From Rhizobium subbaraonis (lineage in GTDB: Bacteria > Pseudomonadota > Alphaproteobacteria > Rhizobiales > Rhizobiaceae): a DNA stretch of 54,659 nucleotides. Positions 3,189 to 23,852 of this stretch are shown here, in pieces. The position numbers and the translations under genes are program-made. Location of the stretch: NCBI RefSeq assembly GCF_900220975.1, contig NZ_OBQD01000027.1, positions 1 to 54,659 on the forward strand. Direction: 5' to 3'. The notes beneath the pieces were generated by a model, which searched no databases, had not been told where the DNA came from, and saw nothing but the letters and a program-made list of their open reading frames with translations. Position 1 is the first letter of the stretch, and the number at the start of each line of letters is the position of its first letter.

Positions 3189-3460
3189 TCAGCGAACACG
3201 TCAAGACAGCCTATCGCATCGCCACTTCCCCTGATCGCCTCGGGTGGAAACCGGCGGAGTTTTGGGCATCCACGCTTGCCGAGTTCGAAATGTCTCTGGA
3301 GGGGCTGGCTGGAAAGTACCAGGGACCCTTTGCCTTCTCGCGCGAGACCGTCCGCCGCATCGCTGCGGCGAGCGGCAAAACAAAATCCATCAGGAAGACG
3401 TTGAGCCATGAGCCGCCCCGAGATCCCGGTCTACATAACAGCCGTGAGCAAGAACGCTGA
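2781..3460 (+). CDS. Tail assembly chaperone, frameshifted long form (gpGT-like)
   Basis: A -1 slip on GGGAAAG at 3164-3170 moves ribosomes out of the short chaperone frame after residue 130 and into a frame open to TGA 3458-3460, adding 96 residues for a product of 226. The extension has no proper start codon of its own near its beginning, yet is clearly coding: it holds 'DRLGWKPAEFWASTLAEFEM', a segment like the small tail chaperones of phages and gene transfer agents (L-G-W-x-P then F-W-x-x-T). Its end overlaps the tape measure start by 53 bases. In lambda the GT protein links the tape measure to tail tube subunits through its T domain. Lambda uses the same heptamer. Confidence 0.75.
3164..3170 (+). 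promoter_or_regulatory. -1 programmed ribosomal frameshift site GGGAAAG
   Basis: The heptamer follows the X XXY YYZ rule with zero-frame codons GGA (3165-3167) and AAG (3168-3170), preceded by the G of CTG. It is placed six codons before the stop of the short tail assembly chaperone. After slippage the tRNAs re-pair with GGG and AAA and translation continues from 3170. Identity, phase, gene position and the open -1 frame all agree with the lambda G-GT site. Efficiency cannot be read from sequence; I looked for but did not establish a downstream stimulatory structure. Confidence 0.8.
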
Positions 3461-6637: not shown

Positions 6638-6686
6638 TGCGATTCAAGCGACATCACATCAATGCTTTTCATTAAAGGAGATAGAA

Positions 6687-6848
6687 ATGGTCCCCGCAGC
6701 GAGATACCAAGAGCTGATGAGTAAACCAGTCGAAACGATCTTTGCTCTGATCGTCCTACGCCTTGGCGAAAAACTCGCCAATGAACTGGCGGCTGATTTG
6801 CTGCAGAACAAGCCTATGCCGCCAGTCACATGGCCGAGGCTGGGTTAG
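6687..6848 (+). CDS. Small hypothetical protein inserted in tail operon
   Basis: This 53-residue protein starts at ATG 6687, preceded by a strong AAAGGAGAT ribosome site, which is the best evidence that it is real. The sequence is mostly one amphipathic to hydrophobic helix ('VETIFALIVLRLGEKLANEL') ending in 'MPPVTWPRLG'. It has no recognisable domain. It lies in a 600-base island between two tail genes together with a minus-strand gene whose last four bases overlap its own last four, so the two are convergent. The pair resembles a moron insertion. Confidence 0.6.
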   Translation: MVPAARYQELMSKPVETIFALIVLRLGEKLANELAADLLQNKPMPPVTWPRLG

Positions 6849-7138
6849 CCAAAATGCTTTTTAAGCTCTTCGACCAACGTTGGGATTTTCCCGGCCGCAA
6901 GACTGTCCCAATATCCATCGCCGGCGTTTACGAGAGGCTGGCCACCGTTGTCCACACCGCGCCGTGTTAGCCTGTATTTCATCTCGCGGAAGACGTGTTT
7001 CTTGAGGAAGTCCTGGGTCTTTGGATCTTCAGTATTGAGGTTGATCCCTGCTTCTTTGGCGGCGATGTAAATCATCAGTCCGTTTACGATCGCCTCTAAG
7101 TCGTCAATGCGACCGGTGATGTCTGCCTGCGTTACCAT
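6845..7138 (-). CDS. Hypothetical minus-strand moron gene inside tail operon
   Basis: This 97-residue protein starts at the ATG complementary to 7136-7138, directly after TAAGGAGGT on the minus strand, a near-perfect ribosome site. The longer open frame up to 7270 is therefore not used. It is highly helical: 'DITGRIDDLEAIVNGLMIYI', then 'DPKTQDFLKKHVFREMKYRL' and a C-terminal 'IPTLVEELKKHFG'. I do not recognise a family. It runs against the late tail genes, which implies its own promoter, possibly active in the lysogen. Base use is visibly richer in A+T than its neighbours, as in morons. A host-benefit or exclusion role is possible but unproved. Confidence 0.7.
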   Translation of the reverse strand: MVTQADITGRIDDLEAIVNGLMIYIAAKEAGINLNTEDPKTQDFLKKHVFREMKYRLTRRGVDNGGQPLVNAGDGYWDSLAAGKIPTLVEELKKHFG

Positions 7139-7237
7139 GATGTACCTCCTTAGCTTTACGAGCGCAAAGGAGCATGGCAGCAACCGGGAGTCGAGTCGGC
7201 CAACCTCCTGACGCCCCGGTAAACCACGGAAAACCAC

Positions 7238-7810
7238 ATGACCTTCAGTGCAGCAGTGCGCGCGCAACATGCGGGCCGCGTGGTTCGGCGTGGCAGGCTT
7301 GTGCTCTTCGACTTCGCGTCAGGGCCGATCGGCGTCTGGAATGGCTTTGGCCGACTGGAAACGAATGACGGCCGCACCTGGCTCGGCTTCGGCGAGCTGG
7401 GGCAGGTCTCGGGGATTGCGCAGGCGATCAACGGCAAGGCGCCGGAACTGCGGTTCACCGTCTCCGGCGTCGACGAAAGCTTTGCCGGAAAGGTGAAGGG
7501 CGAGGCGTCGGAATACTTCGATCGGCTCGTCACCGTGTTCTCGCAGTATTTCGACGAGGATGCCCAGTGCCTGGACAATCCCTATGCCGTCACCTGGGGG
7601 AAGATCCGCGGGATGGAGGCGACCCGCGCGGCCGACGACAATGGCGGGTTCGTTCGCACCGTTTCGATCTCGGCCGAAGGGCCTTTCTCGAACAAGCGCC
7701 GCGCGCCGTTCGGATATGTGACTGACCGCGACCAGCAGAACCGCTACCCCGGCGACAACGGCATGCGCCGCGTCGCCGGTATCGATGCGAAAGAATACAA
7801 ATGGCTTTGA
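7238..7810 (+). CDS. Minor tail protein (gpL position)
   Basis: This 190-residue protein resumes the tail operon after the inserted pair. It starts 'MTFSAAVRAQHAGRVVRRGRL' and contains 'LGFGELGQVSGIAQAINGKA' and 'ELRFTVSGVDESF', a beta-sandwich pattern found in tail tip proteins of Rhizobiales phages. The C-terminus 'YPGDNGMRRVAGIDAKEYKW' is the kind of short tail that mediates contacts in the tip complex. It overlaps the next gene by ten bases. In lambda this place is held by gpL, which binds an iron-sulfur cluster; here no matching cysteine set is visible (a single Cys in 'DAQCLDNP'). Confidence 0.7.
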   Translation: MTFSAAVRAQHAGRVVRRGRLVLFDFASGPIGVWNGFGRLETNDGRTWLGFGELGQVSGIAQAINGKAPELRFTVSGVDESFAGKVKGEASEYFDRLVTVFSQYFDEDAQCLDNPYAVTWGKIRGMEATRAADDNGGFVRTVSISAEGPFSNKRRAPFGYVTDRDQQNRYPGDNGMRRVAGIDAKEYKWL

Positions 7811-8196
7811 CCGTTCTCGACGCCTTCATCGCCGACATGGCGCAGAAGCCGTTTTGCTGGCGCAATCTGAATTGCGGGCTGGAACTGGCCGACTGGTGGC
7901 GGGTCAATCACGGGATCGACCCGGCAGCAGACCTGCGGGGCGTTGTTACCGATGCCGCCGACGCCGAGCAGCTGATCGCCGATCGCGGCGGACTTGTTTC
8001 ATTGGTCTCCGCCATTGCTACGAAGGCCGGCGCTGTCGGTTCCGCCGGTGACAGGCCGGGCGACTTCGGCGTGATCGAGGTTGCGGGCGTGCAGTATTGC
8101 GCGATCCTTTCGTCCAGTGGTCGCTGGATCGTGAAGGCTGAGCGTGGTGTCGCCGGTTTCCGCGACTGCACCGTCCTGGCGGCGTGGAGCATCTGA
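7801..8196 (+). CDS. DUF6950 family tail protein (gpK position)
   Basis: This 131-residue protein has the signature of DUF6950: 'FIADMAQKPFCWRNLNCGLE', then 'LADWWRVNHGIDPAADLRG', and a small C-terminal domain with 'PGDFGVIEVAGVQYCAIL'. The first segment resembles the 'pFxWGxxDC' entry of NlpC/P60 peptidases, with Cys in 'LNC' at the catalytic place, and lambda gpK in the same genomic position is an NlpC/P60 protein. The usual His of 'HVGI' appears to be replaced ('YCAI'), so activity may be lost or altered. Start and stop overlap both neighbours. The peptidase relation is inference. Confidence 0.75.
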   Translation: MALTVLDAFIADMAQKPFCWRNLNCGLELADWWRVNHGIDPAADLRGVVTDAADAEQLIADRGGLVSLVSAIATKAGAVGSAGDRPGDFGVIEVAGVQYCAILSSSGRWIVKAERGVAGFRDCTVLAAWSI

Positions 8197-10652
8197 TGCC
8201 GCAGGCAATTGTTGGTCTCATCGCTGCGGCCGGTATCCCCGGCCTCGTTACCGCCACGGGCGCGCTGACGCTCGGCGGCAACCTGCTGGCCGGCGCCATC
8301 GGCTTTGGCATCTCCTATGGCGCCAATGCCCTGTTCAAGGAGGATGCGCCGAAGCCAGCGGAGATGCGCGGAACCGTCCGTCAGTCGGTATCGTCTCGGC
8401 GCAAGAGCTATGGCGAGGGGCCGATGGGCGCCGCCATCATCTTTTTCGAAGTCCGCGACGGCGCGCTGGTGCAGATCCTCTATCTTGGCGAGGGCGGCGA
8501 ACAGGGGATAGACGCCTTCACCGAATGGCGGCTGGACGAGCGGATCGTCACCGTCGAGCTGGACGGCAATATCAACACCTCGCCGATCGACGGAAAGGTG
8601 GAAGTCGAGTTTCGCCTGGGGTCTGCGAGCCAGCTTCACTACGAGCGGGTCGCGGAAATTTTCCCCGAGATCTACGACGACACGCATCGCTGCCGTGGTT
8701 GCGTCACCGTCATGATCAAGTCCAACAAGGTCAAGACGGAAAAGATCAGGGAGGTTTACCCTAACCGACTGCCGCAGCTCGTGCCGGTAGCCCGTCGAAA
8801 CAAGGTGTTTGATCCGAGGACCGAGCTGACGGCCTACTCGGCGAACCTGGCGCTGATCTTCCGCAGCTACCTCGTCGACCTCGACGGCGCGGGACTGCCG
8901 GCCAGCATGATCGACGAGGCCGATTTCGAGGTGGCGGCGGACATCGGCGATGAGCTGCTTGCGACCTCGGGTGGCGGTACGGTTCGCCGCTATCACGGCC
9001 AGCTGGACTACAAGCTGGAAGAGGAACCGATCAATATCATCGAGCGGATGATCACGGCGACCGACGGCCGGCTGTTTCTAAAGCGCTCCGGCAAGATAGG
9101 GTTCAAGGCGGGCAAATATGTGCCGCCGACCGTCTCGATCCCCGACGCCGTCATCGTCAGCTATTCGCTGAAAGACTCGAGCGGGCCGCTGCGCGAAGGC
9201 ACCGAAGTGACCGTCCGCTACCAGAACAAGATGGCGCGCTATACCGAGGCGACCTGCGATCCCTGGATCATCGATGCTGACGGGACGCGAAAGCCGATCC
9301 CGATCCAGGCCTACGAGATCCAGGAGCACCATCATGCCCGGCGCATCGCCAAAAGGCGGGCGCAGCGTGCAACGGCGCGTTGGCGCGGCACGATCGTGAC
9401 GGACCTGTTCGGGCTGGAGGCGTGGGAGGAGCAGTACATCTACCTCGAGGTGCGCGACCTCGGCATCGACTTCGAGCCTTTCGAGATCATGGATATCCGC
9501 GAAGGCGACGATGACATGACCGTCGTCATCGACGTCGTGAGCCTGCCGGAAGATCCCGAGACCATGCACGATCTGACATTCGCCGAGGAGGGAACGCCGC
9601 CGGCCATTCCCGAAGACTTCGACGACGAATCCATCCATGCACCGGAAAATCTCACTGTTTCGATCGAGAAGCGAAATGTCGGCGAGGCGACGATCGCTCT
9701 CCTGGTGGCGTCCTGGGACGCGTATTCGGATCGCGATGATCTATCCGCACAGGCGCAGATCTCGCTTGCCGACGCTGAAGAGTGGACGGACATCAACGTT
9801 GCCGACAGCAACACGCGTTCCGAGGCGGTCGGGATAGCAGATGGCGAGCGATACGATGTTCGCGTGAGGTGGAAAGAGCCAGAGGGGAAACCTTCCGACT
9901 GGGCGCTGTTCGAAAACGTGCTTGTCAGCATCTACGAGCAGGAGAGCCTTGCGCTCTTCGCCGCCATGACGACGCCGCCCACCACCAACCGCAAGGGCCA
10001 CATCAATACGCTGATCCGAACCCTCAAGAATGCCGGTGTCTGGGCGAAGCTGACGAAGATTGCGGTTCTCGCAGCCGCAAACGAGCAGGCGGCATTGCTT
10101 GATTGGAAGAACCCGGGCGGGACCGCCTTCTCGAAGGTGGGCACGATCACGTTCACCGCGGATCGCGGGTTCACCGGTGACGGTGCGACCGGCTATCTCG
10201 ACAGCGGCGTTGCATGGAACACGCTGGTTTCTCAGGACAATGCTTCGATGTGGGGCTTTTCCCTGACAGAAGCATCCGCCAACTCCTCGATTGTCGGAAC
10301 AGCGTCTGGCAGCGGTAGTGCCTTCGTAGGGCCAAGGAACAGCGCGGCGTATACCGTTCGCGCCCACGGCGCTCAAGTGACCGTGGACAGCGCCGGCTCT
10401 TCCATCGGCTTCTTTGGCTGGTCCCGCTCCCTTTCCTCTGCGTTCCGGGCTTATCGCAACAAAGTCGAGAGCACCATAAGCCAGGCGTCGGCGGCGCCGC
10501 CAACCGGCAACATGACCATACTGAGAACTGCCGGCACGTATGGTCCGTGGCAGGTACCTTTTGCTTGTGCTGGAGCAGCGCTCACCACGGCAGAACAGGG
10601 CGCGCTCTACGACGCCATCGCAGCGTACCTGACAGACATCGGGGCTCTCTAG
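8196..10652 (+). CDS. Tail tip / host specificity protein, gpJ-like
   Basis: This 818-residue protein begins at ATG 8196 (TGATG overlap with the gene before); a GTG at 8184 is possible. Residues 10-50 are a Gly/Ala-rich hydrophobic stretch ('GLVTATGALTLGGNLLAGAI') that includes the I-like segment fused to J in rhizobial phages. The central part ('DEADFEVAADIGDELLATSG', 'YHGQLDYKLEEEPINIIERM') matches the J-type hub. Residues about 490-590 look like a fibronectin-type domain, and from about 590 ('TTNRKGHINTLIRTLKNAGV') a separate distal domain begins. It forms the tail tip and contacts the host surface. Shorter than lambda gpJ (1132). Confidence 0.85.
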   Translation: MPQAIVGLIAAAGIPGLVTATGALTLGGNLLAGAIGFGISYGANALFKEDAPKPAEMRGTVRQSVSSRRKSYGEGPMGAAIIFFEVRDGALVQILYLGEGGEQGIDAFTEWRLDERIVTVELDGNINTSPIDGKVEVEFRLGSASQLHYERVAEIFPEIYDDTHRCRGCVTVMIKSNKVKTEKIREVYPNRLPQLVPVARRNKVFDPRTELTAYSANLALIFRSYLVDLDGAGLPASMIDEADFEVAADIGDELLATSGGGTVRRYHGQLDYKLEEEPINIIERMITATDGRLFLKRSGKIGFKAGKYVPPTVSIPDAVIVSYSLKDSSGPLREGTEVTVRYQNKMARYTEATCDPWIIDADGTRKPIPIQAYEIQEHHHARRIAKRRAQRATARWRGTIVTDLFGLEAWEEQYIYLEVRDLGIDFEPFEIMDIREGDDDMTVVIDVVSLPEDPETMHDLTFAEEGTPPAIPEDFDDESIHAPENLTVSIEKRNVGEATIALLVASWDAYSDRDDLSAQAQISLADAEEWTDINVADSNTRSEAVGIADGERYDVRVRWKEPEGKPSDWALFENVLVSIYEQESLALFAAMTTPPTTNRKGHINTLIRTLKNAGVWAKLTKIAVLAAANEQAALLDWKNPGGTAFSKVGTITFTADRGFTGDGATGYLDSGVAWNTLVSQDNASMWGFSLTEASANSSIVGTASGSGSAFVGPRNSAAYTVRAHGAQVTVDSAGSSIGFFGWSRSLSSAFRAYRNKVESTISQASAAPPTGNMTILRTAGTYGPWQVPFACAGAALTTAEQGALYDAIAAYLTDIGAL

Positions 10653-10725
10653 TCCAGCGTCGCCATCGACGAATCCCTCACACCGAGAAATTGACAGCCC
10701 GCGCCGAACCTTCGGACGCGATCAC

Positions 10726-13521
10726 ATGGGGTATTCAATGACCATTACCGATCAGGCGAAAATCGTCTATGCCGCCGGTTCTTCCTCCTCGCCCGCCGAG
10801 CCGGACAAGTCCCAGATCATCGCCCTGTTCAAGATGATCGATGCGCTCCTGTCGTCGGCGTTGAATGGCGTCCTTATTGGCAATGCCGTTGTCTACGCGA
10901 CCCGGTCGGCCCTCTATGCTGATCTCGCACACCCGGCAAACCGGCTCGGCATCGTCTACAATGACCCTACGGCCGGCTACAACGGCATCTACATCAAGGC
11001 GGGTTCCTCGGGCTCGGGCAGCTGGTCGATCACGTCGCTTGCGTTGCCCGCGACCTTTGCGGCCGACTTATCCGCCGTCATTGCTGAAGTCGCTACGGCT
11101 CGCGGGGCCGAGGTCAGCCTTGTCGCGAGGCTGAGCGCGATCGTCACCTCGATCACAACGGGCGACAACGCCGTACGCACTACGCTTGCTGCAGCAACCA
11201 CGCCCGTCGTCGATTTCGGCCAGGAGCTGCTCTACGACGAAAGCGGCGTCGCCGGTCCTGAGAAGACCCTTTACGTGCCGCGCGAGCTATTTGCCCGTGC
11301 CGGTGGATCGACGGCGCTGAATGGAAGTTTCGGAACCGCATCGACGCCGTTTCCGAACCACGTCGCCTTCACGATCACGTCGGGTTCCGATATTGCGACG
11401 GTCTACGTCGACGCCAACGACGATACCAATCCCGTCAAGATCGCGCTCGTCCCCTCCGGCGTCGTACAGAACATTGCCGCGCGATACTTCATCGTCGCCG
11501 AGATCTGGCGCGGTGTCGTGAAATCGCCATTCCCGGTGATGCGCCTGGATGAGAACCTGAAATCGCGGATCCAATTCCGCTATCCCATTGCGATCCTCGG
11601 CGACAAGATCCGGTTTTCTGCCTTCTACCACTACACGCGCCGCACGGGCTTCACCCTCTATTCGCCCGCGAGCGGTGATCTCTACTGGGAGTTCGATCTC
11701 TCGACGGCGACGAACTCGGAGACGCGCTATTACTTCGACCCCGTTGCGGCGGCGGCAGGATCTGCGCCGATCAAGGCAGTTTCCGGGAATGCCTTTCCAA
11801 TGTTCCCGCGCGACGATCGGTTTGTGTTCATCGCGGCAAGTCTCGCGCGCTCGGTGCGGACGGATCATCAAACCGTCGGTGCGCGTCCGGGAAGCCGTCA
11901 CCTCAGCATGTTCAGCCGGGGCAACGATCCCGACAGATCGACGCTTTTTTCGGCAAACGCGCTGCTGGCGGATTTCACGTCTTCGGAATTGACCTCCCGC
12001 GGCATCGTCCGGGGGGTGACCGGGATCGAGGCATTCTACGGCGAGGATCTGCCGCCCGACATGCCATTGGAGGGCTGGTATTTCGTTCGTTGCTATGTGC
12101 ACACCCCTGTCGTGGATCCTGAGACCGGCGAGGGGGTTTACTATACACCGCGGCTCTATTTCCTCGATGCCGGGGGGAACGCGCTGACGACCGAGGGCGG
12201 AGCGAACAGCTATTTCGGGCTGGCTAAAGAAAAGCGACTTTCAGTGGACACTGCGATCTTTGTCGGGTTTGCGCGATACAAGTTCACGTCGCGGCCCGTT
12301 CGCTACAATATTGGGGCCTATCAGGATCCAGGAACGATGTGCACGTTCGGCGGCGCGCAGCTCTACGCTGGCGTCAACATCGGCGGATACATCTTCCCGG
12401 AAGAGTGGCCGACGCCATCGGATATGGATGCGCTGTATGGGGGGAAACACTATTCCATCGCGGGCCGTCCGCTGCCGTTCTTCGTGCCGTCGATGCTTTC
12501 CGGCAAGCGCAACGTCTCTACCTTGCCCCTGCTGACGATCCGCTGCGCGGCAAGCGCTGACGCTGATACGCCTTACTTTCTCTCCGGCGCCGGCACGCTC
12601 GAACTGGACTACGCTCGCGCCGGATCCTCGATGCTGTTCGAGACGCAGGGCGGCCCGGAGGGCGCTGGCAGGCGAGCGCGGCGAACGGTTGCGAATGCCC
12701 GGGTCTCTGCCCCTGTTGCCGGCAGTGCCGCCATTCTCGGCTTTGGCGACAGCATCGGCAACCGATCGGTTCTGGGGAAGGCTTCGGCCAAGATGTCTGC
12801 AGTCGGGATCTCTCCGACCTTCATCGGCTCCATTCAGCAGAACGACGGGCTCATGGGAGAATGCCGCGAGGGTTGGGAGTGGCAGGACTTCTACCACGGC
12901 GAAACACAGTTTCCGCCCGTGACAAACGTCGCGGCCTATCTGGCTTTGGCGGCCGATGGCACTGGAAGCGATCGGCGGCAGGGCCATAACCCCTGGGTCC
13001 GCCCTGCGACGGGCGGCGACCCCGTCGGCAAAGTCTTCTACGGGCACATCTTTGATTTCGCCTGGGGGCTGTCTCGTCTCGGGCTGGCGCTTCCAACGCA
13101 CGTCATGATCAACTTTGGCACCAACGACATCAACCAGCGTTCGCCGGCCATGTCTCTCGCGCAGGCGAAGACGGGGCTTGGTATCCTCGTGTCCTCGATC
13201 CGCGCCGCCGGTGCCAATATCCAGATTGGCGTCGGCTTGCCGGCCATCCCGCGCAGCGCCTCGAGCGATCAGAAATGGGTTGAGGAGCAGGTGCCGATGA
13301 TCCGCGCCATCATCGACTACGTGAGGACGCTGGCCGATGACAAGGTCAACGTTCTCCCCTTCTGGGCGCACATGTCGACGGACACCGATTGGGTGGAGAC
13401 GACACTATTTGTCGATGAAAATGCGACGGTCGCACGCGTGTCGGACGAACTTCATCCCAACGAGCAGAACCGGCACATGATGGCAGAGGTCATTGCCGCC
13501 TGGGTGGCAAACACGATCTAG
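10726..13521 (+). CDS. Tail fibre/spike with C-terminal SGNH hydrolase domain
   Basis: This 931-residue protein follows the tail tip gene. A second possible start, ATG 10738, has GGGG six bases upstream. Residues 1-150 resemble the helical tail-attachment part of phage fibres; the middle is beta-rich. Residues about 665-930 are an SGNH/GDSL hydrolase: block I 'LGFGDSIG' with the likely nucleophile Ser676, block III 'NFGTNDI' (798-801), and block V 'DELHPN' with Asp907 and His910. Such domains on virions remove acetyl or other acyl groups from surface polysaccharide. This suggests that the phage binds and edits an acylated O-antigen or exopolysaccharide. Substrate is unknown. Confidence 0.85.
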   Translation: MGYSMTITDQAKIVYAAGSSSSPAEPDKSQIIALFKMIDALLSSALNGVLIGNAVVYATRSALYADLAHPANRLGIVYNDPTAGYNGIYIKAGSSGSGSWSITSLALPATFAADLSAVIAEVATARGAEVSLVARLSAIVTSITTGDNAVRTTLAAATTPVVDFGQELLYDESGVAGPEKTLYVPRELFARAGGSTALNGSFGTASTPFPNHVAFTITSGSDIATVYVDANDDTNPVKIALVPSGVVQNIAARYFIVAEIWRGVVKSPFPVMRLDENLKSRIQFRYPIAILGDKIRFSAFYHYTRRTGFTLYSPASGDLYWEFDLSTATNSETRYYFDPVAAAAGSAPIKAVSGNAFPMFPRDDRFVFIAASLARSVRTDHQTVGARPGSRHLSMFSRGNDPDRSTLFSANALLADFTSSELTSRGIVRGVTGIEAFYGEDLPPDMPLEGWYFVRCYVHTPVVDPETGEGVYYTPRLYFLDAGGNALTTEGGANSYFGLAKEKRLSVDTAIFVGFARYKFTSRPVRYNIGAYQDPGTMCTFGGAQLYAGVNIGGYIFPEEWPTPSDMDALYGGKHYSIAGRPLPFFVPSMLSGKRNVSTLPLLTIRCAASADADTPYFLSGAGTLELDYARAGSSMLFETQGGPEGAGRRARRTVANARVSAPVAGSAAILGFGDSIGNRSVLGKASAKMSAVGISPTFIGSIQQNDGLMGECREGWEWQDFYHGETQFPPVTNVAAYLALAADGTGSDRRQGHNPWVRPATGGDPVGKVFYGHIFDFAWGLSRLGLALPTHVMINFGTNDINQRSPAMSLAQAKTGLGILVSSIRAAGANIQIGVGLPAIPRSASSDQKWVEEQVPMIRAIIDYVRTLADDKVNVLPFWAHMSTDTDWVETTLFVDENATVARVSDELHPNEQNRHMMAEVIAAWVANTI

Positions 13522-13677
13522 GCTCAGAATGTCGGCCCCATGACAAGCGCAACGAAAAAGGCGCAGCTGAGGGCTGAGAAGTAACGAGAGTAACATTGTT
13601 CATGGCGACGATCTCCAGCTTTCCCGTCGCCTGAAAACGCGCAAACCGCGCACCAGTTCCGAAAGAAGGACATCATC

Positions 13678-14313
13678 ATGAACCGCAGCGCATTCTATGC
13701 GTCTGTGCGCTCGTCGCTGTTTGGCGGCCGGCTGACACAGGGGCAGGTCAAGGGGATGGAGACCATCCTGAACAAGTGGCAGGCGGACGGGCTGACCGAC
13801 GCCCGCTGGCTGGCCTACATGCTGGCGACCGCTTTTCTCGAGACCGGCCAGACGGTGGCGCCGATCACCGAGAACCTGAACTATTCGGCCGCCGGACTTC
13901 GGAAGACGTTCCCGAAATACTTCACCGTCGCTCAGGCCAACGCCTACGCCCGCCAGCCGGAACGGATCGCAAACCGGGCGTATGCCAACCGGATCGGCAA
14001 CGGCAACGAAGCGTCCGGCGACGGCTGGCGCTACCGGGGGCGTGGGCTGGTGCAGATCACCGGTCGGGCGAACTATCGGACCTATGGCCTGGAGAACTCG
14101 CCGGGCGACGCGCTGCTCGACGCCGTCGCCACGCGGATCATGTTCGACGGCATGATCAATGGCCGCTTCACCGGCGTGAAGCTCGCCGACTGCTTCAACG
14201 AGACGACCACCGACTGGAAGAACGCCCGCAAGATCATCAACGGGCTCGATCGCGCCGACGACATCGCCGGTTACGCGCGGAAGTTCCACGCGGCCATTCT
14301 CGCGGCCTCCTGA
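13678..14313 (+). CDS. Endolysin, GH19 chitinase-like muramidase
   Basis: This 211-residue protein starts after AAGGAC at ATG 13678. It has the features of GH19-type endolysins: 'LAYMLATAFLETGQT' with the likely catalytic Glu, 'PITENLNYSAAGLRKTFPKY', 'ANRIGNGNEASGDGWRYRGR' and 'GLVQITGRANY'. There is no signal peptide, so export to the murein depends on a holin. It cuts the glycan strands of peptidoglycan to release progeny. The 57-residue membrane protein just downstream is the likely partner. Length is typical for single-domain phage GH19 enzymes. Confidence 0.9.
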   Translation: MNRSAFYASVRSSLFGGRLTQGQVKGMETILNKWQADGLTDARWLAYMLATAFLETGQTVAPITENLNYSAAGLRKTFPKYFTVAQANAYARQPERIANRAYANRIGNGNEASGDGWRYRGRGLVQITGRANYRTYGLENSPGDALLDAVATRIMFDGMINGRFTGVKLADCFNETTTDWKNARKIINGLDRADDIAGYARKFHAAILAAS

Positions 14314-14330
14314 GCACGAAAGGACACCCC

Positions 14331-14504
14331 ATGCAGAAGATTTCGAAAGCCATAGCAGCAGCAGCCGGCGGCGCTGCAACCGGCACCATTGGCTTGCCGT
14401 TCATGCCGGCCGACACGCCTTGGTATGGCTATCTGTTGCTCTACGCGATCACCGTCGGTCTGCCGGCGGTGCTGACTTACTGGGCACCACCGAACAAGGT
14501 CTGA
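14331..14504 (+). CDS. Small membrane protein, holin candidate
   Basis: This 57-residue protein begins 17 bases after the endolysin stop, with AAAGGA upstream of ATG 14331. It shows a short basic N-terminus 'MQKISKAIAAAAGGAATGTI', a first weak hydrophobic stretch, then 'WYGYLLLYAITVGLPAVLTY' as a clear membrane segment, and a short polar tail. Size, membrane character and place next to the endolysin point to a class II-type holin. No family assignment is possible for so short a protein. Its 3' end overlaps a convergent minus-strand gene by 28 bases. Confidence 0.65.
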   Translation: MQKISKAIAAAAGGAATGTIGLPFMPADTPWYGYLLLYAITVGLPAVLTYWAPPNKV

Positions 14505-16736: not shown

Positions 16737-17711
16737 ATGGAGAGACGTAGGGCCAAAGGCGCGACAGTCCACCACGACCCGATGCCGACGCGCATCGAGC
16801 CCTGCCTCGCCTTGCTCGTGAGCCGGCCGCCCGTCGGTCCGGAATGGAGCTTCGAGGTCAAGTGGGACGGATACCGGCTGGCAGTCCATAGAGAGCCGTC
16901 GGGCGTCCGCATCATCACGCGGGGCGGGCACGACTGGACGGAGCGCTTTCCCGCCATCGCACAGGCTGCGGAGGCAATCGACGCGGATACGCTGATCCTT
17001 GACGGCGAGGCGGTGGTTCTCGACGAGCAGGGGCGATCGGACTTCGGCGCGCTTCAGCAGGCGCTGGGCGGTCGCGGCGGCAAGCGAAGTGCCAGCGAGG
17101 CACTGTTCTGTGCCTTCGATCTTCTCTATCTCAACGGCCACGACCTGACGGGCATGCCGCTGCGCGATCGACGCGCGATGCTCGAGGCGATCTGCCATGT
17201 TCCCGGCGGCATCATCCGGTTGTCCGAGGAGATCGGCGACAATGGCGCGGAGCTGCTGAAGGTCGCTTGCGGCATGGGGCTGGAAGGGATCATCGGCAAG
17301 AACGAAAGCAAGCCCTATCGTTCCGGTCGGCGCGGCGACTGGGTGAAGATCAAGTGCGTGCAGAGTGAGGGCTTTGCGATCGTCGGTTACGAGCCCTCGC
17401 GCGATGCACTCGGCGGCATCGGCCGACTGCTGCTGGCAGCAAGAAAGGGCAGTGACCTGGTTTATGTCGGCGGCGTGGGGACCGGCTTCACCGCGCGATC
17501 AGGGGCCGCGCTGCGCCGCCAGCTCGACGCGATAGCGATCCCGAAAGCCGCTATCGATGTGGGAAAGCGAAAGGGCGTTTTCGTGAAGCCGATACTTGTG
17601 GCGGAAATTGAGTTTCGCGCGTGGACGCAGGACGGCAAGCTTCGGCATGCGTCGTTCAAGGGGCTGCGCGATGAGGCGGATGCGGCCTCGATTTATGAGA
17701 TTGTGGGGTGA
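16737..17711 (+). CDS. Stand-alone ATP-dependent DNA ligase, LigD/LigC type
   Basis: This 324-residue protein consists of the nucleotidyltransferase and OB domains of an ATP-dependent DNA ligase only. Motif I is 'EVKWDGYR' with the AMP-accepting Lys42; motif III region 'LDGEAVVL'; motif IV 'LEGIIGK'; motif V 'DWVKIK'. The OB part ends with 'RAWTQDGKLRHASFKGLRDE', as in rhizobial LigD ligases. The polymerase and phosphoesterase domains of full LigD are absent, and no Ku gene is in the window. It seals nicks in DNA, likely in end joining or repair. Start may be MPTRIEPC (16782). It is near a prophage and an SRAP repair gene. Confidence 0.92.
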   Translation: MERRRAKGATVHHDPMPTRIEPCLALLVSRPPVGPEWSFEVKWDGYRLAVHREPSGVRIITRGGHDWTERFPAIAQAAEAIDADTLILDGEAVVLDEQGRSDFGALQQALGGRGGKRSASEALFCAFDLLYLNGHDLTGMPLRDRRAMLEAICHVPGGIIRLSEEIGDNGAELLKVACGMGLEGIIGKNESKPYRSGRRGDWVKIKCVQSEGFAIVGYEPSRDALGGIGRLLLAARKGSDLVYVGGVGTGFTARSGAALRRQLDAIAIPKAAIDVGKRKGVFVKPILVAEIEFRAWTQDGKLRHASFKGLRDEADAASIYEIVG

Positions 17712-17718
17712 TGGAACA

Positions 17719-17745
17719 CCCGGCGGCACTGCACATGCCGCCGGG
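17719..17745 (+). terminator. Hairpin after ligase gene
   Basis: A perfect ten-base stem (CCCGGCGGCA / TGCCGCCGGG, loop CTGCACA) starts eight bases after the ligase stop. No T-run follows, so it is either a weak terminator or a 3' stabilising structure. Confidence 0.45.
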
Positions 17746-17857
17746 CTGCTGTATACCTCATACACAGCTCACCCGCGCGAACGCGAGTTCTGCAATTTTG
17801 AGTGTAATTGTCAAAAATTTTATTAACCTGCTCGCCGGGTCACGTAACGAGGGCGCG

Positions 17858-18016
17858 ATGAGCGAGACACGAGGCGAATTCATCAAGGCGAAACTGACGG
17901 AGTTACTGGAGTTGAGCCGGAAGGACGGAGAGAAAGCCGTCATGTTAAGCTATTTGCTCTCAATGACGCTTCAGGAGGCGCGGCAAGTCTACTGGGGTGA
18001 ACGGGGACCGGCCTAG
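17858..18016 (+). CDS. Small hypothetical protein, 52 residues
   Basis: This 52-residue protein begins at ATG 17858 after CGAGG. It is helical: 'RGEFIKAKLTELLELSRKDG' and 'VMLSYLLSMTLQEARQVYW'. An AT-rich stretch (17796-17826) upstream looks promoter-like, with TTGAGT and a TATTAA-like element. Its last four bases overlap the stop of the SRAP gene on the other strand. Small proteins with the end 'LxMALxEA' are common in Rhizobium near such genes; no function is known. Confidence 0.55.
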   Translation: MSETRGEFIKAKLTELLELSRKDGEKAVMLSYLLSMTLQEARQVYWGERGPA

Positions 18017-18741
18017 CCCGCCGGCATTGGAGGCAGAACGAGCATTAGCTCGTCGTCAGGCAATGGTCGCTGGAGGCGCTTCGCTTCTTCCCAGGGAGCC
18101 GTCAGCCACGTCTCCGTTTCGTCGCCGGGCCGAAGGATCACAGGCATCGCCTTCTGGTGGATCGGCGCGACCACGGCGTTCGGCTCGGTCGTGAGGAATC
18201 CGAAGAGGTCGGTCGTTATCATGCCCTCTTTGACCTTCCGGACGCTTTCCCACTGGGGAACCCAAATTCCAGCGAAGAACAACAGCGGTTGCGTCTCATC
18301 CGCTGCAAACCAGGCGTTTGGTGTCCTGCCGCCTTCGGCCTTGCTCGCGGGGTCGGGCTCAGCAAATCGGGTGAACGGGACGACGCAGCGGTTCTCGACG
18401 CCAAGCCAGCGGGTCCAGTGTTTGCTTGAGGTATTGCGGACGTTGGTCGTGCCGCCGTCCGGCTCCAGACGCATCAACTCGATGAAGTCGACGTCCTTGC
18501 CCTTAGCGCGAAGCTTTTCGGCGCGCTTTTGTGCCGATTGAAACAGAGCCTGTCTCGATGACGGTAGTCCCCAACGGACCATGGCAGCCTCGCGTCCGGC
18601 AGGGGTGTTCCGCACGATCGGTGCCTTGTAGTCGGGATAGATGTCCAGCGACGGTTCCAGGTTGCCCAAACTGTCGATCATGGCTCGCGTCGCCTGAAGG
18701 ATCGCAAGCTGGTTCGTCGTGACGTTATACAGGTTGCACAT
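18013..18741 (-). CDS. SOS response-associated peptidase (SRAP/HMCES/YedK type)
   Basis: This 242-residue protein starts 'MCNLYN', giving the obligatory Cys2 once Met1 is removed. The SRAP active site is complete: Asn100 in 'GGTTNVRN', Glu128 in 'VPFTRFAEP' and His195 in 'APIHQKAMPVIL'. Family members link covalently to abasic sites in single-stranded DNA and shield them from breakage, then release themselves. It is slightly longer than E. coli YedK, with an extra segment around 60-95. It is convergent with the 52-residue gene. I searched upstream for a LexA box with the alphaproteobacterial GTTC-N7-GTTC spacing and found none. Prophages often carry this gene. Confidence 0.93.
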   Translation of the reverse strand: MCNLYNVTTNQLAILQATRAMIDSLGNLEPSLDIYPDYKAPIVRNTPAGREAAMVRWGLPSSRQALFQSAQKRAEKLRAKGKDVDFIELMRLEPDGGTTNVRNTSSKHWTRWLGVENRCVVPFTRFAEPDPASKAEGGRTPNAWFAADETQPLLFFAGIWVPQWESVRKVKEGMITTDLFGFLTTEPNAVVAPIHQKAMPVILRPGDETETWLTAPWEEAKRLQRPLPDDELMLVLPPMPAG

Positions 18742-18966: not shown

Positions 18967-19557
18967 CTACGTCCCGAGCCAGCGCTTTTTCAACTGGGCA
19001 ACAAGTTCCTCGGAGGTATCGCACATCACCAAGTGTGACATCAAAAGACGTTGAAGCTCTCTCCTACGATCGCTTTCTAACTTTGCGACCGCCGACTTTG
19101 TCGCCGCGACTCTCCTGGTCGCCGTCACGTCACCATGATGCGTCTTGCCGTCGTTCTCGGTGTGAAAAATGCAAAACCACCGCTTCTCGTCGCGCAGCGC
19201 GCGGATGGCGCTTGCTGGAAGAATAGCGGCGCCGACCAACTTGCCCTCATCGCTAGCCGCGACAAGTTGGTTAACTGTAACCTTTATCTCTTCCTCTGGA
19301 GCATCCTGCCGCACCACGCTGAGGCCGGCGGAGAATACCGCGCGCAACTTTGCACTAACCAGCTCCCCCGCTTCAAGATCGTAGCCATCCGGTGTCGTCA
19401 AGATCCTGGCGATTACCTCGTCACTGCTAATTGGAGAGCCACCATTTGGATGCAAAGAATGGTCTTCGCAGCCACACTCTGGACTATGTTCGTCCAAGGT
19501 ATCAGCACGCCTAAGAAATTCGGCGCCAGCCCACACTTCAAGACAGCCAGGACTCAA
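18967..19557 (-). CDS. Third gene of TIGR04255 operon, Cys/His-motif protein of unknown function
   Basis: This 196-residue protein starts at a TTG (complement of 19555-19557); AAGGG lies nine bases upstream and overlaps the end of the preceding gene, which supports the start and coupling. No ATG is available near. Residues 24-36 hold a compact set, His24, Cys28, Cys30, His33, His36 ('HSPECGCEDHSLH'), that could bind a metal. Next comes 'GGSPISSDEVIARILTTPDG', then a mixed alpha/beta region with 'LPASAIRALRDEKRWFCIFH' and a basic C-terminal helix. I recognise no domain. G+C is visibly lower than in core genes. The function is unknown; operon position suggests it acts with the two genes before it. 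Confidence 0.75.
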   Translation of the reverse strand: MSPGCLEVWAGAEFLRRADTLDEHSPECGCEDHSLHPNGGSPISSDEVIARILTTPDGYDLEAGELVSAKLRAVFSAGLSVVRQDAPEEEIKVTVNQLVAASDEGKLVGAAILPASAIRALRDEKRWFCIFHTENDGKTHHGDVTATRRVAATKSAVAKLESDRRRELQRLLMSHLVMCDTSEELVAQLKKRWLGT

Positions 19558-19563
19558 TGTGGC

Positions 19564-20097
19564 CTACCCTTGGATTATGGCAATTGCTTTGCGCAGAGGC
19601 TCGGGAAGGTGCTTTCCATTGAAGGGAATGCAGAACTCCTCGATCACTTTATCCTTCGTATCAAAACTGAATGAAATTTCATCCGCTGCCTCAACCGCAA
19701 CTTCAGCATTCGCCGGGACGTCGCGAAGGAAAAAAACTGGCCGCCCATCGCCTCCTACATGGACCCGGATTTTGACCCGAGTGTTGACGAGCAAAGCAAA
19801 GAGTTCAATTGCGGTATCAATTAGTTCAGACGAGGGTGCGGGCGCACCGTCACCGTCCCAATTGTCTTTCCAGGTTCGGAACGAACGAAGCCTAGCCAAC
19901 GACACGTCAATTTCGGAATCCAAGTATATCACGTTGTCCCATTTTACTTGGGACGTTCCACTGACGAGACTCGTCGATGCAGAGATTGTGCTTATTCGGT
20001 TAAATTGACCCCTGGTTGTGGCAGAAACTGCTACACCTTGGGAATTCTCGAAACTGCTGCGTGTCCTCTGCGGAGAGTGGGAATCTAACACCTGCAT
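19564..20097 (-). CDS. Second gene of TIGR04255 operon, WDGDGA-motif protein of unknown function
   Basis: This 177-residue protein starts four bases after the stop of the TIGR04255 gene (ATG complement of 20095-20097) and stops six bases before the third gene. Residues 1-45 are Ser/Thr-rich and poorly ordered. Residues 70-95 contain 'FRTWKDNWDGDGAPAPSSEL', a motif (NWDGxGA) shared by several short uncharacterised bacterial proteins, followed by a helix ('IDTAIELFALLVNTRVKIRV') and a strand 'HVGGDGRPVFFLRD'. No catalytic site is evident. A+T content is raised. It may serve as a binding partner of the gene products on either side. Confidence 0.75.
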   Translation of the reverse strand: MQVLDSHSPQRTRSSFENSQGVAVSATTRGQFNRISTISASTSLVSGTSQVKWDNVIYLDSEIDVSLARLRSFRTWKDNWDGDGAPAPSSELIDTAIELFALLVNTRVKIRVHVGGDGRPVFFLRDVPANAEVAVEAADEISFSFDTKDKVIEEFCIPFNGKHLPEPLRKAIAIIQG

Positions 20098-20101
20098 TCT
20101 C

Positions 20102-20941
20102 TCAGCCCTTCATCGAAACGGCGGCGGCCGCCTGGTCCGTTATAATTTTACCAAAGGTTTGCTTCAACGACACATGCAGGGCTTCGAAGCGCTCGATTAT
20201 GGCCGCACCCTCAAAGCTTTCATTCGAAAGCGGAGGATAGCCTTTTTGGTTAAAGAAATCTGTAAGGTGCGTCCGAATGCGAGCTACTCGCACTGGATCT
20301 TCGCCCGTTGGTGTGGTTCCAGTGTTTATGTCGGCTACGTCAATATCAATGTTGCACAGTCGCTTTGTCTGCGCATCCGGTGATGTAAAAAAACCGGAGT
20401 GGCAATGCCACGGATTTGTTTTACTGTAGGAAACAGGTGATGTGAACTCGCTATTCTCACGAATAAGCTCTGAGCAGTCTGGGCCATGGGAAGCGGGAGC
20501 CGCTTCGAACATATCGATATACTCAAGCTGGATCGCGGAAATTGTTACGCTATCCATGTAGCGCTCCGTAAGGGGTAGAAATAGCTCGCCCAACTTCTCT
20601 GCAAGGGCGGCCCACCTAGTGTAGCGCCACTCTTCAAACGAGATCTCCGACTTCAAGATTAACAATTTGTCAGATGCGAACCCTGGGCGCTCGAGACGTA
20701 AGTGCTCTACTCCCACTTCTCTGATGCTCTGCACCGGAGGGCCAGATGGAGACATTGTTACGTTCACATCCTGCACTGGCTGCTCAACATTCAACCCTAA
20801 CGCGCGCGCTCGGTCTTTGCCAAGCGTTAGGATCCTGCGCCAAGGTATCTCGTTAACATCTTGGCTGAATCGGACTCTGGCTATCACCTGCTGTATGGCA
20901 TGCGCTGAGTTGATTGGCCTCCACTGCTTCAAGGCCGCCAT
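20102..20941 (-). CDS. TIGR04255 family protein
   Basis: This 279-residue protein fits TIGR04255, a sporadically distributed family of unknown function. Family marks are the N-terminal 'NSAHAIQQVIARVRF' (about 12-25), a 'LGL' segment near 49, a strand region with 'ISFEEWRYTRW' (100-110) followed by a helix ('AALAEKLGELFLPLTERY'), and 'AIQLEYIDMFEA' (136-147), corresponding to the usual 'xGLRYIDRF'. The start is ATG 20941 after GGGGGA. It is the first gene of a tight three-gene operon with no sign of other cargo. Sporadic families of this kind are often found in defence islands; a defence function here is inference only. Confidence 0.8.
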   Translation of the reverse strand: MAALKQWRPINSAHAIQQVIARVRFSQDVNEIPWRRILTLGKDRARALGLNVEQPVQDVNVTMSPSGPPVQSIREVGVEHLRLERPGFASDKLLILKSEISFEEWRYTRWAALAEKLGELFLPLTERYMDSVTISAIQLEYIDMFEAAPASHGPDCSELIRENSEFTSPVSYSKTNPWHCHSGFFTSPDAQTKRLCNIDIDVADINTGTTPTGEDPVRVARIRTHLTDFFNQKGYPPLSNESFEGAAIIERFEALHVSLKQTFGKIITDQAAAAVSMKG

Positions 20942-20969
20942 TACATCCCCCGGAACCTATTTCCGCATA

Positions 20970-20998
20970 GACTTAGGTGAGCCGCTCGCATCAGTCAA
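20970..20998 (-). promoter_or_regulatory. Putative promoter of the TIGR04255 operon
   Basis: On the minus strand TTGACT (20998-20993) is separated by exactly 17 bases from TAAGTC (20975-20970), with the start codon 29 bases beyond. The -35 match is good, the -10 match poor. Confidence 0.35.
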
Positions 20999-21321
20999 TC
21001 TCGTGCTCGGCGCCGATGTGCAGCACTGGACACTTTTAAAAAAAACATAATGATTAAATAGCGTGGGTTCGTGTCCAGAAATCCGCTAGCAGATTGTTTC
21101 CGTTCGATTTCTGTGTCCCGGCATGGGGCACCAACTGCTTACCTAAATTTTGATTTTTATTGTTTGGCTGCGGTGATCCCCGCTTGTCTAGCCTTTGCGC
21201 AGCGCTGCTCCGTCTCATCGCGCCGGCCCCGGTGCGAGCCACCTCTGACGGCGTCGTGTTGAAGACATAATCGGCGACACGCGCTATCGTCCCCGCGACG
21301 CTGGACCAAAGGGATTTGACG
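20999..21321 (+). other. Intergenic region at the prophage/core transition
   Basis: These 323 bases hold no credible gene. The left part (21035-21060) is a run of A and T; 21060-21180 is mixed, with an A+T-rich patch near 21143-21165; the rest is high G+C like the core. A short T-arm-like string (GGTTCGTGTCC at 21066-21076) does not extend into a tRNA. The change in base use makes this a plausible place for the right prophage or island end, but no att repeat can be tested within the window. Confidence 0.4.
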
Positions 21322-21810
21322 ATGGACGCGATTTCAACCCCCAATCCGATCCTGGAAGTCATTCTGGGCACGCTGACGATGATTGTCGTCATCTTCGTGC
21401 ACGGCGCCGGCATTCGAACGATAAACCGGCGGTTCAACAGGGCCTGGGTTCACGTCACCGGTGCCACTGCCCTCTGGCGGCTCGATCTTCTGCTGGCCGT
21501 CACCATCGGATCCCTCGCCCTGCTGCATTTCGCCGAGACTTTGCTCTGGGCAACCCCTCTGGTATTGCTGGGCATCGTTCCGACCCTTCGAGACAGCTAC
21601 TACTTCGTTCTGCAGAGCTATACGACGCTGGGCGATGGCACAGTCCGATTGCCCGACGACTGGAGGTTGATCGGGCCGATCATCGCCATGTCGGGCCTGT
21701 TCACCTTCGGATGGACAGTAAGCGTGCTGGTGAACATCATGACCGCCTTTGGCAAGGCCGACAGGGAACGGGCGGAGCGACTAAAGGGGGGCGTTGCGGA
21801 GGTCGAATAG
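21322..21810 (+). CDS. Small ion channel-like membrane protein
   Basis: This 162-residue protein starts at ATG 21322 after AAAGGGA; a TTG at 21316 is less likely. Membrane helices are predicted at about 10-30, 53-88 (possibly two) and 117-140 ('LIGPIIAMSGLFTFGWTVSV'). Before the last one stands 'LQSYTTLGDGTVRL' (98-110), placed like the pore loop and filter of two-TM potassium channels, in which 'TTLGDG' replaces the canonical T-V-G-Y-G-D. It is thus a channel-like protein of the Ion_trans_2 type common in rhizobia; selectivity cannot be stated. It is the first gene with normal core base use after the accessory flank. Confidence 0.7.
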   Translation: MDAISTPNPILEVILGTLTMIVVIFVHGAGIRTINRRFNRAWVHVTGATALWRLDLLLAVTIGSLALLHFAETLLWATPLVLLGIVPTLRDSYYFVLQSYTTLGDGTVRLPDDWRLIGPIIAMSGLFTFGWTVSVLVNIMTAFGKADRERAERLKGGVAEVE

Positions 21811-21980
21811 GGGACCGCAGGATCGCAGCCGTCTATCACGCCGGGCGATGGCGTTGAGATGCGTCGTCAGGTGCCCTGGCGGACCTCACGTCAACAGACT
21901 GGACGTTGCACAAGCTTGCTTGCGCGGGTTTCGCAGCGGTTCTACTGCTTTCGCGCGACACTCCTCATAGGGCATTCATC

Positions 21981-22601
21981 ATGGAAATCTTCACGTCCGC
22001 CGGCCTGCTGGCTCTCCTGCAGGTCATCGTGATCGATCTGGTGCTGGCGGGGGACAACGCGGTCGTGATCGGACTTGCCGCTGCCGGCCTCCCCGCAGCG
22101 CAGCGCAAGAAGGCGATTTTCGTCGGCATCATTGCGGCCACGGTCCTGCGCATCGGGCTCGCCAGCGTTACGGTCCAGCTGCTCGATATCATCGGCCTGC
22201 TTCTGGCAGGTGGCATTCTTCTGTTGTGGGTGTGCTGGAAGATGTGGCGGGAACTGCGTGCCGCGGTCAGCGACGGCCAGCACACTGCGGCGGATACGGT
22301 TTCTGTGCCGAAGAAGTCGTTTACGCAGGCGGCGACGCAGATCGTCGTTGCCGACGTCTCCATGTCGCTCGACAACGTGCTCGCCGTGGCGGGAGCATCG
22401 CGCGAACATCCGACCGTGCTCGTGATCGGGCTGGCCCTTTCTATCGCCATGATGGGCATTGCGGCGAACTACATTGCCCGCCTTCTCAACCGCCATCACT
22501 GGATCGCTTATGTCGGCCTCGCCCTCATCCTCTACGTGGCCCTGCATATGATCTATCGCGGGGCGGCCGAAGTGTGGCCGCATGTGGTCGCATCACTGTG
22601 A
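21981..22601 (+). CDS. TerC family integral membrane protein (YjbE type)
   Basis: This 206-residue protein starts at ATG 21981. It has about seven membrane helices and the two acidic signatures of TerC proteins: 'VIDLVLAGDNAVVIG' in the first helix and 'VADVSMSLDNVLAVAG' in the middle. TerC proteins export metal ions, above all manganese, and in some cases protect against tellurite or help metallation of secreted enzymes. The 170-base leader (21811-21980) was checked for the yybP-ykoY manganese riboswitch and no convincing core was found. Length is normal for the YjbE subgroup. Confidence 0.9.
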   Translation: MEIFTSAGLLALLQVIVIDLVLAGDNAVVIGLAAAGLPAAQRKKAIFVGIIAATVLRIGLASVTVQLLDIIGLLLAGGILLLWVCWKMWRELRAAVSDGQHTAADTVSVPKKSFTQAATQIVVADVSMSLDNVLAVAGASREHPTVLVIGLALSIAMMGIAANYIARLLNRHHWIAYVGLALILYVALHMIYRGAAEVWPHVVASL

Positions 22602-22640
22602 AGCGGGTTCCAGAAACGGGCTGTCCCGCCGCGTTCCCCA

Positions 22641-23852
22641 TCAGCGTCTCTCCGGGTCGATGGTGAACAGCTCGGTCGCGCGCCCGACGCCGCGCAGCGC
22701 GTAGCGGCCGAGGGAGACCATGTCGGCCGCCCGCGCCGGCGGGCAGGCGTCGACGAAGTCGCGCGACATCAGGACGTTCCGGTCGACGGAGGTGCAGAGC
22801 GCCGAAATGCGGCTGACCTGGTTGACGCAGGGGCCGACGACGGTGAAATCCAGCCGGCCGCGGCTGCCGATGTTGCCATAGAGAACGTCGCCGACGTGGA
22901 GGCCGAGATAGACCTCGGTGGCGGGCATGCCCGCGCCAAGGCGCCTGGCGTTGAGTTCGGTAAGGTTGCGGTGCACGGCGCGCTCGGCGTCGAGCGCTGC
23001 CACGCAATCGGCCTGCCGGTCACCGGAGCGGAAGATCGCCAGCACGCCGTCGCCGATCAGCTTCAGGACGCTGCCGCCGTGGTCGTGGATGGCGCCGACC
23101 ACAAGTTCGGCGTAGTCGTTGAGGAACGGAATGATGTGCTCGGGCTCCGTCCGGTCTGAAATGCTGGTGTAATTGTGCAGGTCGGAAAACCAGATGACTG
23201 CCTCGATTTTCTCGACCTCGCCGCGGTTGATGCGGCCGCTGACAACCTTCGCGCCAGCATCCCGCCCGAGATAGACCTCCGCGAGCGTGCCGATGATGCG
23301 GATCGAGGACGCACATTTGATCGCGAGCGCCAGCGTCGGCACGAGGATGCGCAGGGCACGCAGATCGTCGTCGCTAAAGCCTTCGGCGGCGCGCGTCGAC
23401 CAGCTGGAAAAGAAGGCGTCCATTTCGCCAACGCGGCCATTCTCTGTGAAGCGATGGATCATTGCCAGGTAATCGGTGTGGCCGGCGGCCTTCAGTTCCG
23501 GCATGTTGGCGTAGTCCGTCGCCGCGCCCCTGGCAAAGGGGCGGTGGACTTCGTCGACCTCCGTCGTCATCAGATGGTAGAAGACCGACGACCGCCAGGC
23601 CTGCCGGCTATGGTCGTCGCTGATCGCTTCGTATTCGCGCACCTCCATTTCCGGATCGGCGCTGTCCCAATGGAAGGACCGGCCCTCGAAATCGGGGTGC
23701 AGCGTGTCGATGATCGCCAGCGCGCGGCCGATCCGAAGGCCCTTTTCGTTGCAGCGTTCGCAGAAGCCGGCGATCAGGTCGCCCTCGTCGGTGCCCTGAT
23801 AGCCCTCGCGGGAGAGCCAGAGGGTGATTTCGTGGAGATCGCGATCTTTCAT
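22641..23852 (-). CDS. Class III adenylate cyclase
   Basis: This 403-residue protein is read from the ATG complementary to 23850-23852 with AAAGG upstream. The C-terminal half (about 212-400) is a class III cyclase catalytic domain: metal-binding Asp224 ('WFSDLHNYTS') and Asp268 ('KLIGDGVLAI'), adenine-selecting Lys264 and Asp335 ('LDFTVVG'), and transition-state Asn344/Arg348 ('NQVSRI'). All key residues are present, and Lys/Asp indicate ATP, not GTP, as substrate. The N-terminal 200 residues contain no membrane helix and look like the sensor region found in rhizobial Cya proteins. It makes cyclic AMP in the cytoplasm. Confidence 0.92.
   Translation of the reverse strand: MKDRDLHEITLWLSREGYQGTDEGDLIAGFCERCNEKGLRIGRALAIIDTLHPDFEGRSFHWDSADPEMEVREYEAISDDHSRQAWRSSVFYHLMTTEVDEVHRPFARGAATDYANMPELKAAGHTDYLAMIHRFTENGRVGEMDAFFSSWSTRAAEGFSDDDLRALRILVPTLALAIKCASSIRIIGTLAEVYLGRDAGAKVVSGRINRGEVEKIEAVIWFSDLHNYTSISDRTEPEHIIPFLNDYAELVVGAIHDHGGSVLKLIGDGVLAIFRSGDRQADCVAALDAERAVHRNLTELNARRLGAGMPATEVYLGLHVGDVLYGNIGSRGRLDFTVVGPCVNQVSRISALCTSVDRNVLMSRDFVDACPPARAADMVSLGRYALRGVGRATELFTIDPERR

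Follow-up and report, generated by a model that had tools for sequence, protein, structure and literature searches.

Three adjacent genes at the edge of a prophage of Rhizobium subbaraonis, designated here A, B and C, constitute a real and repeatedly conserved operon. The trio is put forward as a putative selfish or phage-defence module, and it probably works as one. The window, i.e. the whole stretch of DNA that was analysed, comprises 54,659 nucleotides and represents an entire contig, so that the other end of the prophage lies outside it.

Gene organization and genomic setting

Gene A (20102-20941, minus strand; 279 aa, ATG start), the proposed sensor or chaperone, encodes a protein of the TIGR04255 family and is followed by gene B (19564-20097, minus strand; 177 aa, ATG start), which encodes a WDG-domain protein carrying the sequence NWDGDGA and is the proposed partner or antitoxin of C. 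Gene C (18967-19557, minus strand; 196 aa, TTG start, HSPECGCEDHSLH) is the proposed effector enzyme. The initial annotation had described three minus-strand genes at these positions, and their coordinates, lengths, start codons and intergenic gaps, of 4 bases between A and B and 6 bases between B and C, were all confirmed. An A+T-rich region on the same strand (20942-21246) extends upstream of the operon to the host junction and is presumed to hold the promoter; a single weak promoter-like match was located upstream of A (21077-21050), the total for the stretch being 3 versus 1.5 expected. The trio was also correctly described as being more A+T-rich than the core, its G+C content being 52.7% (A 51.9, B 50.4, C 55.7) compared to 62.0% for positions 1-14400 of the window and 64.0% for positions 21247-54659, and a G+C content as low as that of the trio was encountered in 10 of 527 segments of trio length (overlapping, step 100, with those covering the trio counted).

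On one side of the operon are the late genes of the prophage, and on the other the host DNA resumes at 21247. The late genes (34-14313, plus strand), as recognized by PHROGs, specify the major head, tail terminator, tape measure, tail, fibre and endolysin proteins, and, in agreement with the earlier description of the trio as adjoining both a prophage and DNA repair cargo, these phage genes are located on one side of it together with genes for a DNA ligase and an SRAP protein. On the other side, the host chromosome with its ion channel and TerC genes (21247-23834) is collinear with the genome of a congener, G054 (89.8% identity), in which zero matches were found to the left of 21247. Since host collinearity begins at this position, the start of A lies at the margin of the variable DNA, approximately 300 bases in from the border. 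The empty site of the prophage was not recovered, the DNA of G054 to the left of the junction being different and matching the genome of the window at scattered spots only, and no convincing repeats that might represent attachment sites were detected between positions 12000 and 24000 of the window. The ligase and SRAP genes, which occupy 16737-18741 between the endolysin gene and the trio, resemble DNA-repair cargo of a prophage flank: the former encodes an ATP-dependent DNA ligase (16737-17711, plus strand; PF01068, E 1.5e-33; phrog_114) and the latter, 3' of the trio, an SOS response associated peptidase (18013-18741, minus strand; PF02586, E 2.2e-20), and neither is claimed for the system formed by the trio.

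Conservation of the gene order

TIGR04255 genes were found in 21 of 397 genomes of the same order. Downstream of them, profile matches to both B and C were present at 12 of the 21 loci (G000, G029, G306, G316, G325, G335, G458, G460, G498, G602, G611 and G622), and at four further loci (G337, G352, G365 and G536) B was recognized by profile and the next gene was identified as C by hhalign, with E-values, each referring to single comparisons, of 2.3e-6 for the G536/G337 pair and 2.6e-4 for the G352/G365 pair, as opposed to 0.08-0.79 for five controls. G345 is a doubtful locus among the 21 (B 0.003, C 0.013). Sequences entered the iterated B and C profiles at an inclusion threshold of E 0.01, so that later E-values flatter the members that had been included. 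The C profile matched 8 of 398 genomes of the phylum, five of which carry A-B-C (G000, G029, G525, G727 and G803), two B-C with no A next to it (G755 and G797) and one B-C preceded by an AAA_21 ATPase gene (G801), as well as 3 of 78 genomes of another order (G803, G777 and G800); in G777 and G800 the A, B and C matches cluster, with C lying in two pieces in G777. Within the family, B was detected in 2 of 297 genomes.

When A alone was used as bait, 13 distinct IMG/VR contigs were retrieved, all of which (13/13) carry B and C behind A, and the same holds for the five genome contigs obtained in this manner (5/5), which derive from Tardiphaga robiniae, an Aestuariivirga MAG, Rhizobiales bacterium IMCC20636, Gemmobacter aestuarii and an alphaproteobacterial MAG. 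These collections overlap with others, in that two of the IMG/VR contigs duplicate genome loci (G325 and Gemmobacter) and three of the five genome contigs had already appeared in the TIGR04255 and C profile surveys. A first scan of genome contigs, with the A protein of the window as sole query, returned zero relatives.

The order A-B-C is present in 26 distinct loci gathered for comparison, in which the spacing, based on script-chosen starts, ranges from -25 to +10 bases between A and B and from -73 to +36 bases between B and C. The check on co-occurrence, including the 13 IMG/VR contigs, thus bears out the idea of the trio as a unit, and the objection that its genes might not be found together elsewhere has failed, since A-B-C recurs in order. 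That three unrelated genes have become neighbours by chance is extremely improbable in view of this recurrence, and in particular of the contigs that were found with A alone. Across the 26 loci, the distances of A and C are correlated (Mantel r 0.27; 3 of 2000 permutations as high), as are those of B and C (Mantel r 0.22; 5 of 2000 permutations as high), and no correlation was observed for A and B (r 0.04; 659 of 2000 permutations as high). At locus L092 (1043-1959) the first gene is split over two reading frames, with the frames of B and C being open.

Association with mobile elements

The IMG/VR contigs are viral by selection, being predicted viral sequences. At another locus (L094, 469-3902), C is followed, about 210 bases on, by the gene for a tyrosine integrase that has an Arm-DNA-binding domain, so that the trio lies at the integrase-bearing end of an element, and a PF00589 integrase is encoded near the genes in at least 3 of 19 genomes with the trio or B-C (G622 at ~0.8 kb, G727 at 4.2 kb and G029 at 5.8 kb). 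Neighbouring genes were called by ORF length, and 149 of the 268 called ORFs were considered, corresponding to the nearest five per locus at 31 loci with one duplicate locus dropped; among the family matches listed, i.e. the best 25 of 156 and the best 25 of 92, at least 4 of the 149 proteins match Phage_integrase (Pfam), and portal, terminase and phage replication proteins (PHROGs) are seen beside ordinary housekeeping genes.

Searches of 72,556 plasmid records yielded zero matches for the A, B and C proteins of the window and zero matches for the C proteins of G029, G803 and G536, and the C protein of G365 had matches on two Rhizobium gallicum plasmids, where a VapC-family toxin gene lies next to it in the opposite orientation. 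On the R. gallicum plasmid NZ_CP006879.1 (L106, 6001-6408) a distant relative of C, with no adjacent B annotated, is located downstream of nif genes. For 50,697 phage records, which were searched with the C proteins of G803 and G365 only, there were zero matches to these two queries. Thus, the earlier characterization of the trio as mobile holds for travel with prophages, as evident from the window and the 13 IMG/VR contigs, and does not extend to plasmids as regards the genes of the window, so that, within the searches made, mobility is confined to elements of the prophage type.

Properties of protein A

The placement of A in the TIGR04255 family was upheld, as its score of 46.1 bits (E 5.2e-12) exceeds the curated NCBIfam cut-off of 30, with residues 13-271 being aligned to model positions 4-247 of 252, and this cut-off is also passed by the trio relatives in G803, G611 and G029. 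The family model (sporadTIGR04255) covers A alone and names no function, with B and C falling outside the described families found. In a full-text literature search, from the scope of which preprints and most subscription papers were excluded, neither a paper on the name TIGR04255 nor a description of the trio was found.

An AlphaFold2 model of A based on 17 sequences (pLDDT 89.0, pTM 0.87) was compared with PDB chains using Foldseek, and the only matches at E<=0.001 were four AdoMetDC/prozyme chains (E 5.4e-5 to 2.8e-4, probability 0.97-0.99, TM 0.26-0.29, rmsd 14-18 A). The list also includes 2o2a (E 0.012 and 0.017, probability 0.87 and 0.97), which we take to be a member of the SecB-like superfamily, SecB itself as entry 1ozb (E 0.033 and 0.042, probability 0.51 and 0.33), and chains of the START and PYR/PYL-type helix-grip fold, all with low TM-scores. 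These weak fold matches of a predicted structure may keep the idea of a SecB-like A open, if weakly. As a sequence relative of SecB, A was ruled out, because no match to SecB (PF02556) was obtained in Pfam at E<=10 for 17 A proteins, and hhalign comparison of A or its halves with 11 SecB proteins, which were motif-chosen from 25 fetched SecB loci, gave E-values of 0.35 or worse. An internal duplication of A is unsupported, its halves matching each other by profile at E 0.23, and profile searches for solved relatives of A produced none with one alignment and IMP dehydrogenases (E 0.54-1.1) with another.

The prominence of AdoMetDC and its prozyme among the fold matches, together with the listed helix-grip chains, would suit an alternative in which the trio is fitness cargo of the prophage without any role in conflict, A binding a small molecule or lipid and A-B-C taking part in a metabolic or regulatory step that aids the lysogen. 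This explanation, which also draws on the lack of plasmid matches for the genes of the window, is considered unlikely: the AdoMetDC superpositions combine low TM-scores with a large rmsd, and both the sporadic occurrence of the genes (TIGR04255 in 21/397 genomes and B in 2/297 of the family) and the swapping of partners described below speak against it. Such features are more typical of conflict genes.

Properties of proteins B and C

In keeping with the initial annotation, which knew of no role for them, B and C are without a known family, none being reached in Pfam, NCBIfam, PADLOC or PHROGs: B had zero families at E<=1, and C produced sub-threshold matches only (DUF1543 0.021, DUF5947 0.052 and phrog_29583 0.084). 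A W-[DN]-G motif is kept in 20 of 26 B proteins, and a 19-residue stretch with a mean hydropathy of >=1.6 is present in 4 of 26, which do not include the window copy. The B protein of the window terminates in IIQG; ends in AA, LA or VA are seen in 5 of 26 B proteins compared to 2 of 26 C proteins, which argues against a general ClpXP-type tail in B, and an LAA end occurs in a single B protein (1/26). Profile searches for solved relatives of B returned only flagellins (E 0.0086-0.31), which were taken as chance matches. B-like WDG domains are also located near the C-terminus of frames of 415-459 codons in G729, G737, G758, G765, G793 and others (L145-L152), indicating that this domain is used outside the trio.

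The relatives of C are only 15-27% identical to the window copy, and yet residues E47, S80, R83 and H141 are invariant in both the 18-row and the 19-row alignment, with R119 (>=90%) and A142 being nearly invariant in the latter. The retention of five polar or charged positions, fixed or nearly so, at this level of identity points to E47, S80, R83, R119 and H141 as a candidate active site. In distant branches of C, inspection by eye indicated that the regions of the serine and the histidine are kept, with R83 not clearly so. The AlphaFold2 model of C (18 sequences; mean pLDDT 93.5, pTM 0.89) matched no PDB chain at E<=0.001, the best value being 0.22, so that neither an ADP-ribosyltransferase or nuclease fold nor any other solved one was indicated; against viral structure models there was again no match at E 0.001, the best (E 0.015, probability 0.85) being to an unnamed protein, and no solved relatives of C were found by profile. 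The initial annotation had drawn attention to a Cys/His site with the pattern H-x3-C-x-C-x2-H-x2-H, presumed to bind metal. This site is not conserved, as the full motif, even in slightly relaxed form, is found in the window copy alone (1/26) and C-x-C by itself in 16 of 26 proteins, and a metal-dependent mechanism of this kind was ruled out for C because the histidine positions vary.

Exchange of modules between loci

The first and last modules of the operon are exchanged between loci. In the class to which G755 belongs, the C profile was matched in 4 of 48 genomes (G755, G797, G801 and G720), three of which (G755, G797 and G720) possess B-C without an adjacent A; in G720, B and C overlap by one base and an A profile match is absent from the 8 kb that were fetched. 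In G801 (L057, 3856-6311), B-C is positioned directly behind a gene for a 474-aa AAA_21 ATPase (PF13304, E 9.8e-33), in the place of A, the family description of AAA_21 being 'putative AbiEii toxin, Type IV TA system'. The occurrence of B-C alone or behind this ATPase indicates that B and C act as a pair which can be uncoupled from A, with A being a replaceable first gene. Conversely, at 4 of the 21 TIGR04255 loci (G298, G569, G635 and G643) another partner is found, belonging to a family with a motif, noted by eye, like VILSQDCDL. The loci concerned are L025 (G635), L026 (G643), L027 (G569) and L031 (G298); Pfam searches with three of these SQDCD-type partner proteins gave zero matches, and the neighbour of TIGR04255 at L025 exhibits a weak Xre-like HTH match (E 0.0077).

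Proposed function

The separable B-C pair, the optional A with its weak SecB-like fold matches and the linkage to phages underlie a reading of the trio along the lines of CmdTAC. In this phage-responsive system a SecB-related chaperone has been reported to stabilize the antitoxin until it is displaced by a phage capsid protein, thereby freeing the toxin; the account of this work aligns the chaperone CmdC to SecB entry 1OZB and attributes an LAA-type tail to CmdA (PMC11618068). We tentatively favour, as possible rather than probable, the view that A-B-C represents a prophage-borne modular conflict system like a tripartite toxin-antitoxin-chaperone (TAC) module, with putative roles for A as sensor or chaperone, for B as partner and for C as effector. 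B would hold effector C inactive, and A, an alpha+beta protein of weakly SecB-like fold, would act in stabilization or sensing by binding unfolded or foreign protein. By analogy with CmdTAC, an infecting phage may compete for A, upon which B would be lost and C freed, and C may then act enzymatically through E47, S80, R83, R119 and H141, with catalysis by these residues being presumed, to stop the cell or the phage.

The trio shares with CmdTAC and TAC modules the presence of three small genes per operon, the association with phages, at least weak SecB-like fold matches for one protein, and the fact that the B-C pair is also found without the third gene. It differs from them in several respects. 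TAC modules include a SecB-homologous chaperone (PF02556), in whose presence alone the antitoxin neutralizes the toxin, whereas A lacks a SecB sequence match, is about twice as long as a SecB chain and is encoded by the first gene. Their antitoxin has a C-terminal chaperone-addiction or ClpXP tail, such as the LAA-type tail of CmdA, whereas B of the window ends differently. CmdT-type mRNA ADP-ribosyltransferases are characterized by their fold and an HY-[E,D,Q] triad, whereas the best match of C among solved structures (E 0.22) does not indicate such a fold. The missing SecB homology, the ranking of AdoMetDC above SecB for A in Foldseek, the missing antitoxin tail of B, the lack of a known enzyme fold for C, the mutual dissimilarity of the two halves of A, the uncorrelated A-B distances and the absence of PADLOC matches for the three proteins together weigh substantially against a TAC-like interpretation.

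Some of these features would be accommodated by an abortive-infection or defence module without toxin-antitoxin logic, in which an exchangeable sensor (A, or AAA_21 in G801) activates a B-C effector complex on infection, nothing being neutralized and no protease being involved. The ATPase that replaces A as first gene in G801, the position of the trio at a prophage edge, the correlated B-C distances and the absence of an antitoxin-like HTH or tail from B are all in keeping with this. Likewise, systems with AbiEii-like AAA_21 ATPases resemble the trio in that the G801 ATPase stands in the place of A before B-C, and differ in that the operon of the window is without an ATPase. We nevertheless rate an activated effector of this type as rather unlikely, for three genomes possess B-C but no recognizable adjacent sensor, which is odd for a sensor-dependent effector, and a search of PADLOC-DB 2.0.0 assigned none of the three proteins of the window to a defence family (0 families at E<=1). 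This latter result also qualifies the suggestion of the initial annotation that the trio is a mobile defence or conflict system, of which the prophage-borne unit was substantiated and a match to known defence families was not obtained.

A bolder reading, which we deem quite unlikely, would be that the trio belongs to an undescribed, widespread and modular family of prophage immunity systems, in which B-C, as one effector pair, is wired to TIGR04255, to an AAA_21 ATPase or to no sensor at all and in which both the fold and the chemistry of the enzyme C are new.

Concluding remarks

The analysis unites the unnamed family TIGR04255 with two orphan proteins in a single three-gene unit that is open to testing, whose gene order is defined, whose modules are naturally swapped and in which C has a candidate active site. 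Should this unit serve in defence or addiction, an immunity module that was not flagged here by PADLOC-DB 2.0.0 is carried by prophages of alphaproteobacteria and of other groups, and its effector, C, would then be a protein without a solved structural relative at the sensitivity used.
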